A model generated the notes under the pieces. That model was given only the letters and a program-made list of their open reading frames with translations, searched no databases and was not told the DNA's origin. 64,000 nucleotides of DNA, from positions 372,001 to 436,000 of the forward strand of contig JAUIET010000001.1 of the NCBI GenBank assembly GCA_030429735.1, given 5' to 3'. Positions 54,649 to 58,260 of the stretch are shown in pieces. Source of the stretch: Gammaproteobacteria bacterium (GTDB lineage: Bacteria > Pseudomonadota > Gammaproteobacteria > Pseudomonadales > JAUIET01). Positions within the stretch are counted from its first letter, which is position 1; each line of letters starts with the position of its first letter. The translations under genes were made by a program, and so were the position numbers.

Positions 54649-55608
54649 TTGAGCCGACATTGCGGGCCCAGAATACACCGTACACGCCACTTTCAGGGTG
54701 TACTGGCGCGCACCTTGTTTTTGCTTGCGCTGCTGCTGCCCATGGAGCTACTTGCAGCCACACGTGTGGCCATTCTGATTCCACAAACCCCCTCCAAAGC
54801 TCAGGCCATATACGAAGAGATTTATTCCGGTGTTATGTCTGCAGAGGGCGTGGAGCTGTTGCGCTTCAACGTCAGCGCCGAAACCAGCGCGGAGCAGGTT
54901 CATCAGTGGCTGCATGAGAGCCGGCCGGCGGCCATTATCGCCATCAGTAAAACGCCTTATGAATACGCCAGCACCGCAGGTTTAAATATTCCCCTGATCG
55001 TGGGCGGGCTGGGCACAACACCCAGAGGCGTGTCAGGCGTTGCCCTGGCCGGTGACCCGGCCGAGTTTTTTCTAAATGCCAGGCAAATTGCACCAACCGT
55101 TGAACGAGTGTATCTGGTTTACAACGAAAGCATGAACGGTTGGTGGCTGGATGACGCGCACAAAAGTGCGGCGGAAAACGGATTGGAGCTGATTGCCCTC
55201 GAGGCAGATTCGGTACGCAAAGGCGCCAAGATCTACAAGAAAATGCTGAAAGAGGCCCGTAAAGACAAAGACGCGGTGTGGATTCCACTGGTTACCGTAG
55301 TGCCATCGAAAACGGTTTTGCCCATGGTACTTCGCAAAGCGTGGGACAAACATCTTGTTGTGTTCACCAACAGCCCGATTCATGCCAAACAAGGCGCTTT
55401 GTTTTCTCTCTATCCCGACAATGCCGCGATGGGCGCGCAATTGATGGAACTGGCACTTGAGCTGGCAAACTCAGAAGAGGCCAAACCACGCGTCGTCATG
55501 GCACGCAATATGAAACGCGCGTTCAACTGGCGAACGGCATCTCACCTCGGGCTCAAATACACTCTGGACGAGGAGGCTGGCTTTGACAGAATCTACCCAG
55601 TTCAATAG
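54649..55608 (+). CDS. ABC-type substrate-binding protein, likely sensor subunit
   Basis: A 319-residue exported protein: a signal peptide in the first 37 residues (LARTLFLLALLLPMELLA) and then a Rossmann-like periplasmic binding fold of the type-1 ABC substrate-binding group (ATRVAILIPQTPSKAQAI, PLIVGGLGTTPRGVSGV, VFTNSPIHAKQGALFSL). No permease or ATPase is adjacent. Its stop overlaps the histidine kinase start region by 26 bases, which points to delivery of a ligand signal to the kinase. The start, TTG 54649, is uncertain but no ATG in this frame precedes the signal. Confidence 0.75.
   Translation: MSRHCGPRIHRTRHFQGVLARTLFLLALLLPMELLAATRVAILIPQTPSKAQAIYEEIYSGVMSAEGVELLRFNVSAETSAEQVHQWLHESRPAAIIAISKTPYEYASTAGLNIPLIVGGLGTTPRGVSGVALAGDPAEFFLNARQIAPTVERVYLVYNESMNGWWLDDAHKSAAENGLELIALEADSVRKGAKIYKKMLKEARKDKDAVWIPLVTVVPSKTVLPMVLRKAWDKHLVVFTNSPIHAKQGALFSLYPDNAAMGAQLMELALELANSEEAKPRVVMARNMKRAFNWRTASHLGLKYTLDEEAGFDRIYPVQ
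55571..55576 (+). promoter_or_regulatory. Ribosome binding site for the kinase TTG start
   Basis: AGGAGG, a full consensus, sits inside the end of the binding-protein gene and 6 bases before TTG 55583. It decides the rare start and implies translational coupling. Confidence 0.75.
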
Positions 55609-57202
55609 CGCACCGGCCAGCATTGGCGTGACATTAAACCGACAGAAACGAGTCAGCTTCCGCCAACAGCTGTTTTCCATTTTCGCTGGTTTTGGTTTGA
55701 TGATTGCTGTGGCAGCCGCGCTCGCGTATGCCTATTCAACAACGCAATATTTGCGAGAGCTGTATATTGGTCAGGCGATGCAAGCTACGGAAAACTTTGC
55801 CGGATTAAGTGAGCTTGCCCTGCTCTATGAAAGCGGTGACAACGCAGTAGGGGCAGCATCAGCTACCTTGTCTTTCCCGTCCATTAAATTTGTGTCTATC
55901 ACCACGGCTGATGGTACTGTCTTGTTAGAAGAGGGAAACTGGAGCGGCACGAAATTCCCATTTGAAGGCAAACACCCGCAAACCACGGGCGCAGAATTAC
56001 TTGGTGTGCAGAGTGAAGCGTGGCACTTCTGGGCACCGGTTTATACATTGACTGAGGAAAACACCTCACTGGGTGCAACGACCGCCACCGAAAAAGAATA
56101 CCTTGGCTATGTGTACGTGGTTGAAGACCAACGCGAATTTATCGCAGCCGAGTATGAAATTTTCCGCAAAAACATATTGATTGGCTTGCTTGGTGGCCTG
56201 GTCTTCATTCTAATACTTCATCTGCTATTGAATCGCCTGCTCGCGCCCATGAACAGGCTGGTGAAGGTAATGGAAAAGACGCGCTCCGGTGACACCACTG
56301 TTCGGGCGTTGCCGAAGGGGCCTGCGGAAATCGTTGATATGGCGGAAGTGTACAATAAGGTCATGGATAACCTGGCTGACCGAGATGCCAAGCTGCTGCG
56401 CCACACTGAGATTCTTGAGTCAGAGGTCAGCTTACGCACCCAGGAACTGGTTCAAGCACGCGACCAGGCAATCGATGCCAGTCGCCATAAGTCCGAATTT
56501 CTCGCCAATATGAGTCACGAGTTGCGTACCCCGCTGCAAGCGATTCTTGGATATTCGGATATCGTTCGGGAAGGCCTGGAAGATGAATGCCTGGACGACT
56601 TTGTTGAAGACATAGACCGCATTACGCACAACGCGTCGCACCTGCTGACCTTGATTAACAGCATTCTGGATTTGTCGAAGATTGAAGCGGGACGAATGGA
56701 TCTCAAAATCACTCCGGTTTGCGTCGCCAAGGTTGTTAAGCGCGCCAGTGATACCCTGCAGCCCCTGATGCAGCAAAATCAGAACGAGTTAAAAATTGAT
56801 GTTGATGATGACCAACTCAAAATTGGCATCGATGAGACAAAATTGCTGCAAGTGTTGCTCAATCTTGCGAGTAATGCTGGCAAGTTCACAAAAAATGGCG
56901 TGGTGTCGATTCAAGTACGCCATGCAGCTGACAGCTTGCAAATCGATGTAAAAGACACTGGTATCGGCATGAATAAAGAGCACCTGAGCATGATATTTGA
57001 CCCGTTCCGGCAAATAGATGGCAGTACAACTCGTGAATTCGAAGGAACAGGTTTAGGGCTCTCGATTACCCGGCGCTTTTGCGAGGTGATGGGCGGGCAC
57101 ATCAGCGTGACCAGCGAGCCCGGCAAGGGTTCTTGTTTCACAGTGACCTTCCCGCTGCCGATTACGGGCCAGGCTGAGTCGTCGATTGACTCCACTTTCT
57201 AG
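55583..57202 (+). CDS. Membrane sensor histidine kinase
   Basis: A 539-residue kinase. Two membrane helices (about 30-52 and 195-220) flank a periplasmic domain of some 140 residues with PAS/CHASE-like character. A HAMP-like linker (LLAPMNRLVKVMEKTRSGD), a coiled coil, the phospho-acceptor helix with the His in SHELRTPLQAILGYS, and an HATPase domain with NLASNAGKF, VKDTGIGM and GTGLGLSI follow. No receiver domain is fused and no response regulator gene is adjacent. Its stop codon TAG is contributed by the mobile element inserted at 57200. Confidence 0.92.
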   Translation: MTESTQFNSAPASIGVTLNRQKRVSFRQQLFSIFAGFGLMIAVAAALAYAYSTTQYLRELYIGQAMQATENFAGLSELALLYESGDNAVGAASATLSFPSIKFVSITTADGTVLLEEGNWSGTKFPFEGKHPQTTGAELLGVQSEAWHFWAPVYTLTEENTSLGATTATEKEYLGYVYVVEDQREFIAAEYEIFRKNILIGLLGGLVFILILHLLLNRLLAPMNRLVKVMEKTRSGDTTVRALPKGPAEIVDMAEVYNKVMDNLADRDAKLLRHTEILESEVSLRTQELVQARDQAIDASRHKSEFLANMSHELRTPLQAILGYSDIVREGLEDECLDDFVEDIDRITHNASHLLTLINSILDLSKIEAGRMDLKITPVCVAKVVKRASDTLQPLMQQNQNELKIDVDDDQLKIGIDETKLLQVLLNLASNAGKFTKNGVVSIQVRHAADSLQIDVKDTGIGMNKEHLSMIFDPFRQIDGSTTREFEGTGLGLSITRRFCEVMGGHISVTSEPGKGSCFTVTFPLPITGQAESSIDSTF

Positions 57203-57501
57203 TGTCCCTTAACATAAGTTCGTACCATTTAGAACCAGCACAATGGCGTTCTTCTAGGCGTGTTCCGTAGGGAATATCGACTATATTGGCAAGGGACACA
57301 ACAACGAAGAACGCCATTGTGCTGGTTCCCAGAGGGCCCGCCATTCGAGGCCTCCAGCTTCGTTGGACTCTTTGCGAATAGAGCCCGCTAGAGCCTGCCC
57401 CGCGAGCGACGCGAGTGTTTTGGGTATTCACTGCAGAGTTCGCCTCGCTGGAGGCCTCGAATGACGGGCTAAATGGTACGAACTTATGTTAAGGGACACT
57501 A
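57200..57501. mobile_element. MITE-like element, 302 bp, TA target, three-way-junction fold
   Basis: A non-coding element bounded by perfect 33-bp inverted repeats (57200-57232 and 57469-57501) that begin and end with TA, as expected for a Tc1/mariner or IS630-type insertion into TA. Two more inverted repeats fill the middle: 57232-57254 with 57306-57328 (23 bp, perfect) and 57336-57358 with 57447-57469 (23 bp, one mismatch). The three stems abut, so one strand can fold into a cloverleaf-like three-way junction. No open frame of transposase type is present. An AAGGGACAC copy of the outer end occurs in the first loop (57291-57299). Confidence 0.85.
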
Positions 57502-57537: not shown

Positions 57538-58260
57538 CTAATCAAGAGGGCCTGGTTTCAGTAAGGTTCTGAACCAGTTAAACCAGCCATTGTCTTTCAA
57601 AACCATGTGATCGATTCTGTCGTATTCTTCCGCCAACGCGGCGGGGTTGGCAAAAAACTCCTCTCGGGTGCGCATGGGTCTGCTGGCATCAAGCTGCTTA
57701 ACCACCACCGCCGGATTACCGGCTACGACAACGTTGGCGGGCACGTCGCGAGTAACCACTGCTCTTGCTGCAACGATGCTGTTGTCGCCTATGGTTACAC
57801 CTTTTAATACGGTTGAATGATCGCCTAACCAAACGTTGCGGCCGATGTGCACCGGTGTTTTCGTTGCAGGACGTTCAATCCGGTCGTACAAGCCATGCCA
57901 GTCGGAATCAGTGATATACACGCCATTGGCAATCAGACAGCTATCACCGATAGTGATGTGTTCGCAGGCGCTGATGCGCACACCCGGTGCCAATAGCACA
58001 GCATTGCCAATGGTGACGCCACCGCTGTCAGGTTCATGGCCCCACACACCTATGGTGGTCGGGCTTGAAGGCTCAGCGATGATTGTGACCGAATCACCTA
58101 TGCGAATATTGGGGCCATTAACCTGGATGTGCCAGGGTTTCATCATGGTTGGATACACCCCCAATGCATCCAGCTGCGGGCGTATAAAATGCTGCACATA
58201 CCACTGACGGAAGCGTAAGTAGTACTTCTTTAAAAGGTAAGGTCGTCGGTCCTGGCGCAT
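57538..58260 (-). CDS. Hexapeptide-repeat (left-handed beta-helix) acyltransferase
   Basis: A 240-residue protein whose middle 110 residues are hexapeptide repeats ([LIV]-G-x-x-x-x): NGPNIRIGDSVTII, VTIGNAVLLAPGVRISA, ITIGDSCLIANGVYIT, VHIGRNVWLGDHSTVLKGV and NSIVAARAVVTRDVPANVVVAGNP, with the proline-rich cap typical of WcaF/CatB/VatD-like acetyltransferases. A DSDWHG histidine is the likely catalytic base. The acceptor (a sugar, phenol or polysaccharide) cannot be told. It is divergent from cysE, but unrelated in pathway as far as can be seen. Confidence 0.82.
   Translation of the reverse strand: MRQDRRPYLLKKYYLRFRQWYVQHFIRPQLDALGVYPTMMKPWHIQVNGPNIRIGDSVTIIAEPSSPTTIGVWGHEPDSGGVTIGNAVLLAPGVRISACEHITIGDSCLIANGVYITDSDWHGLYDRIERPATKTPVHIGRNVWLGDHSTVLKGVTIGDNSIVAARAVVTRDVPANVVVAGNPAVVVKQLDASRPMRTREEFFANPAALAEEYDRIDHMVLKDNGWFNWFRTLLKPGPLD

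Follow-up and report, generated by a model that had tools for sequence, protein, structure and literature searches.

A MITE-like element with a conserved cloverleaf core and its probable family in Gammaproteobacteria

Introduction

What kind of element lies where a histidine kinase gene of this gammaproteobacterial genome has its stop codon, and which part of it is held by selection? The element lies in the 64,000-nt stretch of DNA analysed here (the window). A preliminary description presented it as a MITE composed of three abutting inverted repeats, an architecture that was regarded as unusual. MITEs are usually united by their ends, and their interiors are free to diverge. Here the middle is the part preserved, as covarying base pairs and conserved loops show (in alignments from 44 and 61 genomes), and the ends fall into about 27 unlike clusters; it thereby becomes testable which selection, other than for the binding of a transposase, can act on a geneless element. 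The focal element is most probably one member of a large family of non-autonomous, MITE-like transposable elements that is spread over Gammaproteobacteria and shares a conserved cloverleaf core. Within the MITE kind it is a new, structurally conserved variant. If the arms of this core bind a host or an element protein as single strands, they would offer a new handle on the spread of geneless DNA and on its effects on adjacent transcripts; the arm model also makes the family easy to annotate.

Architecture and predicted fold of the element

The outer repeat is complementary at 33/33 positions and the second repeat (the outer stem of arm A) at 23/23, as had been claimed; the third (57336-57358/57447-57469) pairs at 22/23 (96%), hence imperfectly, and seven bases (57329-57335) separate it from the second. 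It had also been stated that almost no unpaired arm is left. The outer stems do abut, but between the outer strands of the arms run internal stretches of 51 and 88 nt, and the internal loops within them are the best-conserved part of the element. Folding of 57200-57501, which had been proposed as a check, predicts stems around a junction, i.e., a cloverleaf, far above chance: the 302-bp strand folds at -105.9 kcal/mol as DNA (z -16.6) and at -177.2 as RNA (z -16.5), in both cases equalled by 0/100 shuffles. The longest ORF overlapping the element comprises 89 aa. The arm model (Table 1 gives the parts) matched in the 64-kb window only the two arms of the focal element, one of them on both strands.

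Table 1. Positions of the element, its parts and the flanking genes in the window
Feature	Position	Strand	Remark
HAMP/HisKA/HATPase histidine kinase gene	55583..57202	+	element sits in its stop codon
Whole element including TA on each side	57200..57501	.	302 bp
Left terminal inverted repeat with flanking TA	57200..57232	+	57200-57202 doubles as kinase stop codon (TAG)
Arm A, 97 nt	57232..57328	+	outer stem 57232-57254/57306-57328, helix 2, apical helix
AGGCG, conserved internal-loop motif of arm A	57256..57260	+	last G paired in helix 2
Inner tip copy AAGGGACAC	57291..57299	+	same as outer tip; overlaps 3' strand of helix 2
CAAC, conserved internal-loop motif of arm A	57299..57302	+	first C paired in helix 2
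CCCAGAGGG, carrying the CCCNNNGGG linker between the arms	57328..57336	.	
Arm B, read on the minus strand	57336..57469	-	enlarged by 36-bp insert
36-bp insert, apical loop of arm B	57391..57426	.	TA on both sides
Right terminal inverted repeat with flanking TA	57469..57501	-	
Hexapeptide-repeat transferase gene	57538..58260	-	convergent with kinase gene

When the flanks are joined in silico with a single TA, the kinase gene ends in TAA; its present stop, TAG, was probably acquired upon insertion, and the kinase protein is unaltered. The element may possibly be read through from the kinase gene as RNA, with a putative fold of its own.

The copy of the outer tip within the first loop had been taken as a sign of one MITE nested in another. 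The sequence AAGGGACAC does recur, at 57291-57299 and 57491-57499. The inner copy, however, overlaps the 3' strand of helix 2, in which 57293-57299 pairs with 57260-57266, and other genomes have the same helix in other letters. The piece that is actually nested is a 36-bp repeat, and it lies in the other arm.

Copies and derivatives in the same genome

BLAST of the own genome returned 107 matching pieces, many of which are repeats of the element matching each other. Further copies had been called for, and nine near-complete ones stand at unrelated sites, seven of full size (299-302 bp; L001-L007) and two of 265-266 bp (L009, L010). Six more are truncated by contig ends (L008, L011-L014, L016), so the assembly may undercount the element. 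Shortened copies measure 153 and 141 bp (L015, L017) or 81 bp (L029), eleven derivatives measure about 100 bp (L018-L028), and solo ends are also present. TA at each tip, noted earlier as a MITE-like feature, flanks eight of the nine near-complete copies and 6/11 of the 100-bp copies on both sides, the other five short ones having it on one side; in 7/9 near-complete copies the outer bases form CTAG on both sides. The tip 11-mer TAGTGTCCCTT occurs 65 times in this genome vs once for the reversed pattern. Being short and non-coding, with terminal inverted repeats, many dispersed copies and TA duplication, the element belongs to the MITE kind.

The 266-bp copies display the basic plan: terminal repeat, arm B (98 nt), a 7-nt linker, arm A (97 nt, inverted) and terminal repeat. 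The plan is 266-267 bp long, and the 302-bp form is this plan with 36 bp added in arm B, which the 265/266-bp copies lack; we take the shorter form as ancestral, since another genome also has it. The insert is related to a separate repeat, as query bases 183-230 were the sole part matched in 7/95 other genomes examined. This separate short repeat, TACCCAAARCACTC...GGGGCAGGCTC, includes the 36 bp and is found twice more in the own genome. Both of these additional places lie near what we read as a possible rRNA leader.

The mobility of the element is well supported. All eleven 100-bp derivatives stop at the point of the inner tip, mostly followed by TAG, and share with the full element only the outer tip at the right end. 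It seems that the mover took the inner tip for an end and would need only about 9-10 bp. Moreover, these derivatives multiplied without an intact arm, so the arms are dispensable in cis for movement. In the mechanism that we propose, a transposase made elsewhere would recognise roughly the outer 9-10 bp (TGTCCCTT...AAGGGACA in the own genome) and insert the element at TA, mostly within CTAG; derivatives sharing that right-end tip alone would be multiplied too.

Several smaller observations concern the tips. Bare tips of approximately 11-17 bp (CTAGTGTCCCTT and a few bases), with no element behind them, occur in the own genome, where they account for some of the 65 occurrences of the 11-mer, and in a genome of another bacterial family, G336 (L138-L140, L143-L147), and their abundance far exceeds the control count for the whole pattern; that they are excision scars or one-sided insertions are guesses. 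A further short sequence, approximately GATGAATTATGCGGGCT, lies beside several copies and solo ends (L005, L020, L034, L039, L055). In L011 the element abuts another tip, AAGGGACACTAGTGTCCCTT, as though inserted into the end TA of another copy, and the contig stops inside it.

Conservation of the core across genomes

Is this architecture a peculiarity of one locus? It had been called unusual, and turns out to be no one-off: it marks a family across the class. With model R1 (E up to 0.001, own genome counted) arms were found in 89/381 genomes and 45/138 genera of the order and in 105/369 genomes and 84/272 genera of the class, the arm copy numbers per genome being lower bounds. About a quarter of the related genomes searched thus keep the shape without keeping the letters: in a genome of the same genus (G001) the DNA search gave zero copies, and the model found arms. 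G336 holds two 267-bp elements with arms at matching positions and other stem letters. The plan shared across families consists of terminal repeats, two inverted arms and the CCCNNNGGG linker, and arms A and B resemble each other in their loops. One-arm relatives are present in a MAG record titled Haliea and at one locus of the genome G231, which also has two-armed elements.

The pairing was measured on alignments of arms. In the first of these (11 arms from four genomes, excised by hand at the stems before MAFFT alignment) 91.7% of cells are paired vs 36-43% when the strands are slid, 0/500 shuffles score as high, and 29/38 arm pairs contain a compensatory change. In the larger alignments the arms were fitted to the structure, and their matches were found with a model that rewards pairing, the loci being mostly the best-scoring matches and the counts non-independent because of shared descent; on these terms, 146 matches at 83 loci, after six second-strand readings were dropped, gave 140 arms (137 distinct, from 44 genomes), in which 92.6% of cells are paired vs 36-43% in slid controls. 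The covariation score is 0.946 vs 0.212 in shuffles (142 distinct rows, including second-strand echoes), and weaker covariation measures lie nearer to the shuffles (18/500 for pairs changed on both sides, 3/500 for further types). Both inner stems are conserved across genomes as the same arms in other letters. Multiple copies and conserved inner stems place the element apart from the two outcomes that the preliminary description had named as fatal to its proposal, i.e., a sequence found nowhere else or an ordinary insertion sequence remnant with inner stems that are not conserved.

The loops are conserved in letters. In the 137 distinct arms the unpaired columns carry on average 1.17 bits vs 0.49 in the paired ones; the AGGC columns are conserved at 94-100% and the AAC columns at 99%. 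As plain strings, AGGCG and CAAC are each present in 123/137 arms, and in a second arm set, from 61 genomes, each in 125/138.

Strand bias of pairing

When the arms are read on the AGGCG strand, G.T outnumbers A.C by 347:55. In the 54 two-armed elements the ratio is 145:21 in one arm and 146:23 in the other, though these lie on opposite strands, and with a registration based on Watson-Crick pairs only (123 motif-defined arms) it is still 167:36. The excess of G.T is thus 4.6- to 7-fold on the own strand of each arm. We prefer to read this bias as selection on a single-stranded fold, to which one-sided cytosine deamination could add; a single-strand constraint on the arms is supported.

How would such a constraint act? 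We give about even chances to the proposal that a protein binds each arm, in single-stranded form and on the strand proper to that arm, via the AGGCG/CAAC loop, during transposition or in transcripts. Exposure of the strand of the arm during transposition would permit this binding. Because the arms point in opposite directions, one correct arm would always be presented, whichever the strand and hence whichever the orientation of insertion.

The same data bear on another account, in which the element is an ordinary MITE and its arms are passive, functionless and kept complementary by template-switch (quasi-palindrome) correction. Such correction can make long DNA palindromes perfect, the copies L001 and L006 differ by paired changes in both the terminal repeat and the stem, and the armless deletion derivatives still multiply. 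Correction should, however, erase the non-complementary loops, and their conservation, together with the one-strand bias of G.T over A.C and the near-constant length and linker, makes this account improbable.

Somewhat unlikely, but less so, is a structured RNA carried on a mobile element, the folded transcript being selected as an mRNA stabiliser, a processing site or a small RNA. The tolerance of G.T(U) and the z-score of the RNA fold are consistent with it; many copies in the own genome lie near long ORFs (by a heuristic), and the focal copy sits in a stop codon between convergent genes. Excerpts of two papers describe such roles for other MITEs and REPs (PMC10969869, PMC3733652). Against it stands the search with Rfam covariance models, which at E up to 1 gave zero matches over the element or its relatives L096, L009, L089, L094 and L001. 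Furthermore, within an element one arm shows its bias on one strand and the other arm on the other, so that any given transcript would carry only one of them in the favoured form.

Ends and target site

Terminal repeats were found in 125 of the 146 loci scanned (mostly best matches), or in 122 elements after three duplicates were dropped. The outer six paired bases include TA in 85/122 elements (GC in 18, AT in 6, CG in 2) and is missing there from 37/122; the TA-to-TA length is 259-266 bp in 63 of these 85. CCCNNNGGG is central in 110/122 elements, and off-centre windows gave a mean of 5/125. The off-centre control and the clustering of ends were computed on the set that includes the three duplicates; by a simple threshold, the ends from 51 genomes form 27 clusters, some of which owe their separation to registration. 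Between elements of different genomes, the median identity of the best arm pair is 56% where the ends are unlike and 62% where they are alike, and arm and end identity correlate weakly (0.30).

One may ask if selection acts on the core as its unit and not on the ends. The core would then be a nucleic-acid parasite, or an adopted host part, distributed across the class; its arms would act as single-stranded hairpins, one correct arm per strand, recognised by a conserved protein via the AGGCG/CAAC loop, and it would occur with many unlike ends. We hold this only tentatively, at somewhat below even chances. A core that persists with many unlike terminal repeats would probably have been moved by many different movers. 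Ends swapped on the same core within one genome were looked for and not found: the pairs whose ends are truly unlike, in G225 and G135, differ in their arms as well (0.41, 0.57), and most of the remaining pairs listed are like ends shifted in registration.

A duplication of 4 bp, CTAG, was set aside: flanks such as TTAG/CTAG, CTAG/CTAA and GTAG/CTAC, whose outer bases are unlike, favour a 2-bp duplication of TA. Some copies in G188 (TTAG/TTAG or TTAA/TTAA) fit a duplication of 4 bp, and ends of different kinds may behave differently at the target. A second Pseudomonas aeruginosa plasmid was compared for an empty site, and its flanks are too diverged.

Search for the mover

A full IS630/Tc1-type partner with the same ends had been proposed. 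IS630 elements duplicate a TA target and prefer CTAG, which the focal element resembles, and the element could accordingly be seen as a deletion remnant of a Tc1/IS630-type insertion sequence. DDE_3 gave 0 matches in the own genome (an assembly 97% complete and broken at copies) and was matched in five of 30 carriers, at 68 places; none of the ten loci checked had element tips nearby, one of them (L291) having a weak, unlike inverted repeat. As in IS630/Tc1-derived MITEs there is a TA duplication, but ends shared with an IS630-type transposon were not found at these ten of the 68 places. The recurrence of the conserved core with unlike ends (27 clusters by the simple threshold) also speaks against a remnant, and we regard this origin as quite unlikely. 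In the genome G225 there are 62 DDE_3 (IS630-type) matches, and the four loci checked lack ends like those of its cloverleaf elements.

Other transposase families were searched as well. The IS481 model gave an IS3-like match and a weak second one, with such ends near neither. DUF772 of the IS5 group was matched in 9 of 16 genomes, none of them the own genome, and YTAR-flanked 16-bp ends 0.8-2 kb apart were not found at the 14 of 22 DUF772 loci checked. Element tips at the distance of an insertion sequence did not reveal an autonomous partner; one candidate, a convergent pair approximately 1.5 kb apart at L010, proved to consist of two small elements, separate from each other, on either side of a 310-aa gene, which we read as ordinary. 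Among 59 arm loci no recurrent transposase gene was recognised alongside. Of the neighbours shared by arm loci, ABC ATPases, as we read them, recur at five loci and a protein read as radical-SAM activase-like at three, and we take both to be unrelated; further neighbour-gene matches link two arm loci each. Reading of the ORF lists of two longer stretches from G510 did not bring a transposase to light. Among the transposase families tested no autonomous partner with the same ends was thus found, so the mover is one that we infer. To our knowledge, many MITEs lack a resident autonomous partner, and the missing partner is therefore compatible with membership in the MITE kind.

Relation to known repeat families

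Bacterial MITEs include RUP, NEMIS, ERIC and Nezha (excerpt of PMC3733652). The features given for them in the consulted part of PMC10969869 are 70-300 bp, terminal inverted repeats, no genes, a short target duplication, mostly intergenic position and a strong fold, and the present element is alike in these. It differs in that its interior (two inverted arms, loops, a fixed linker) is conserved, while the terminal repeats vary from cluster to cluster.

REP dimers or REPINs with RAYT genes, and the TIR families of TIRYT genes, also offer a comparison, in that they are dispersed in the genome and consist of two hairpins in inverted orientation, set apart by a spacer that is short and in some cases structured (excerpt of PMC3733652). 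Could the present element be moved likewise as single-stranded DNA, by an HUH tyrosine transposase? Here, too, the hairpin has a favoured strand, i.e., its constraint is strand-specific, and the arrangement of two inverted units about a short structured spacer is reminiscent of head-to-head REP dimers. According to the same excerpt, certain TIRs of TIRYT genes show partial self-complementarity and make up repeat families (PMC3733652). The 97-nt arms, however, lie inside terminal repeats of approximately 30 bp at TA, and TA on both sides with long terminal repeats suggests a DDE enzyme with target duplication. The tetranucleotides GTAG/CGTC, sought as the four bases before the arm, stand at its foot in 0/140 and 0/149 arms. 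Together with the neighbourhoods of the 59 arm loci, where a recurrent transposase was not recognised, these findings leave little probability to HUH mobility.

MITEPsy1 of Pseudomonas syringae is similarly small and situated at CTAG or YTAA (excerpt of PMC3189936), and the end group GGAGCCTCTGAATAA of G188 recalls its end, CTCTGAAAAA. By its description it is set apart: it measures 100 bp and has 18-bp ends probably derived from ISPsy2, and the excerpt of that paper mentions neither an arm nor a cloverleaf (PMC3189936). MITEPsy2, considered as a relative by its end, was rejected, as the same excerpt gives it Tn3-type ends. Among the papers listed by the literature searches, including those by short sequences, no description of the family was seen; the comparison rests on excerpts of four papers (PMC3189936, PMC10969869, PMC2267715, PMC3733652). 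The family looks unannotated, as Rfam gave no match and the plasmid copies have no listed feature.

Carriers and recent spread

Named carriers include plasmids of P. aeruginosa PA83 and of Halomonas sp. PA16-9. Their records list zero features under the match; the gene tables hold no RNA genes, and the Halomonas record lists one feature overall. The 302-bp element was sought in plasmids and phages, the elements of L180 and L165 in plasmids, that of L178 in phages and the tip in viral contigs, and none was found. In G510, a single contig of 2.96 Mb, arms at at least 11 places score identically; nine fetched copies have identical perfect 24-bp ends, and two more differ only in the edge set by the script, which suggests a recent spread. 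At two places in this genome (L349 1034-1558, L352 300-824) two elements with quite different ends stand back to back at one TA.
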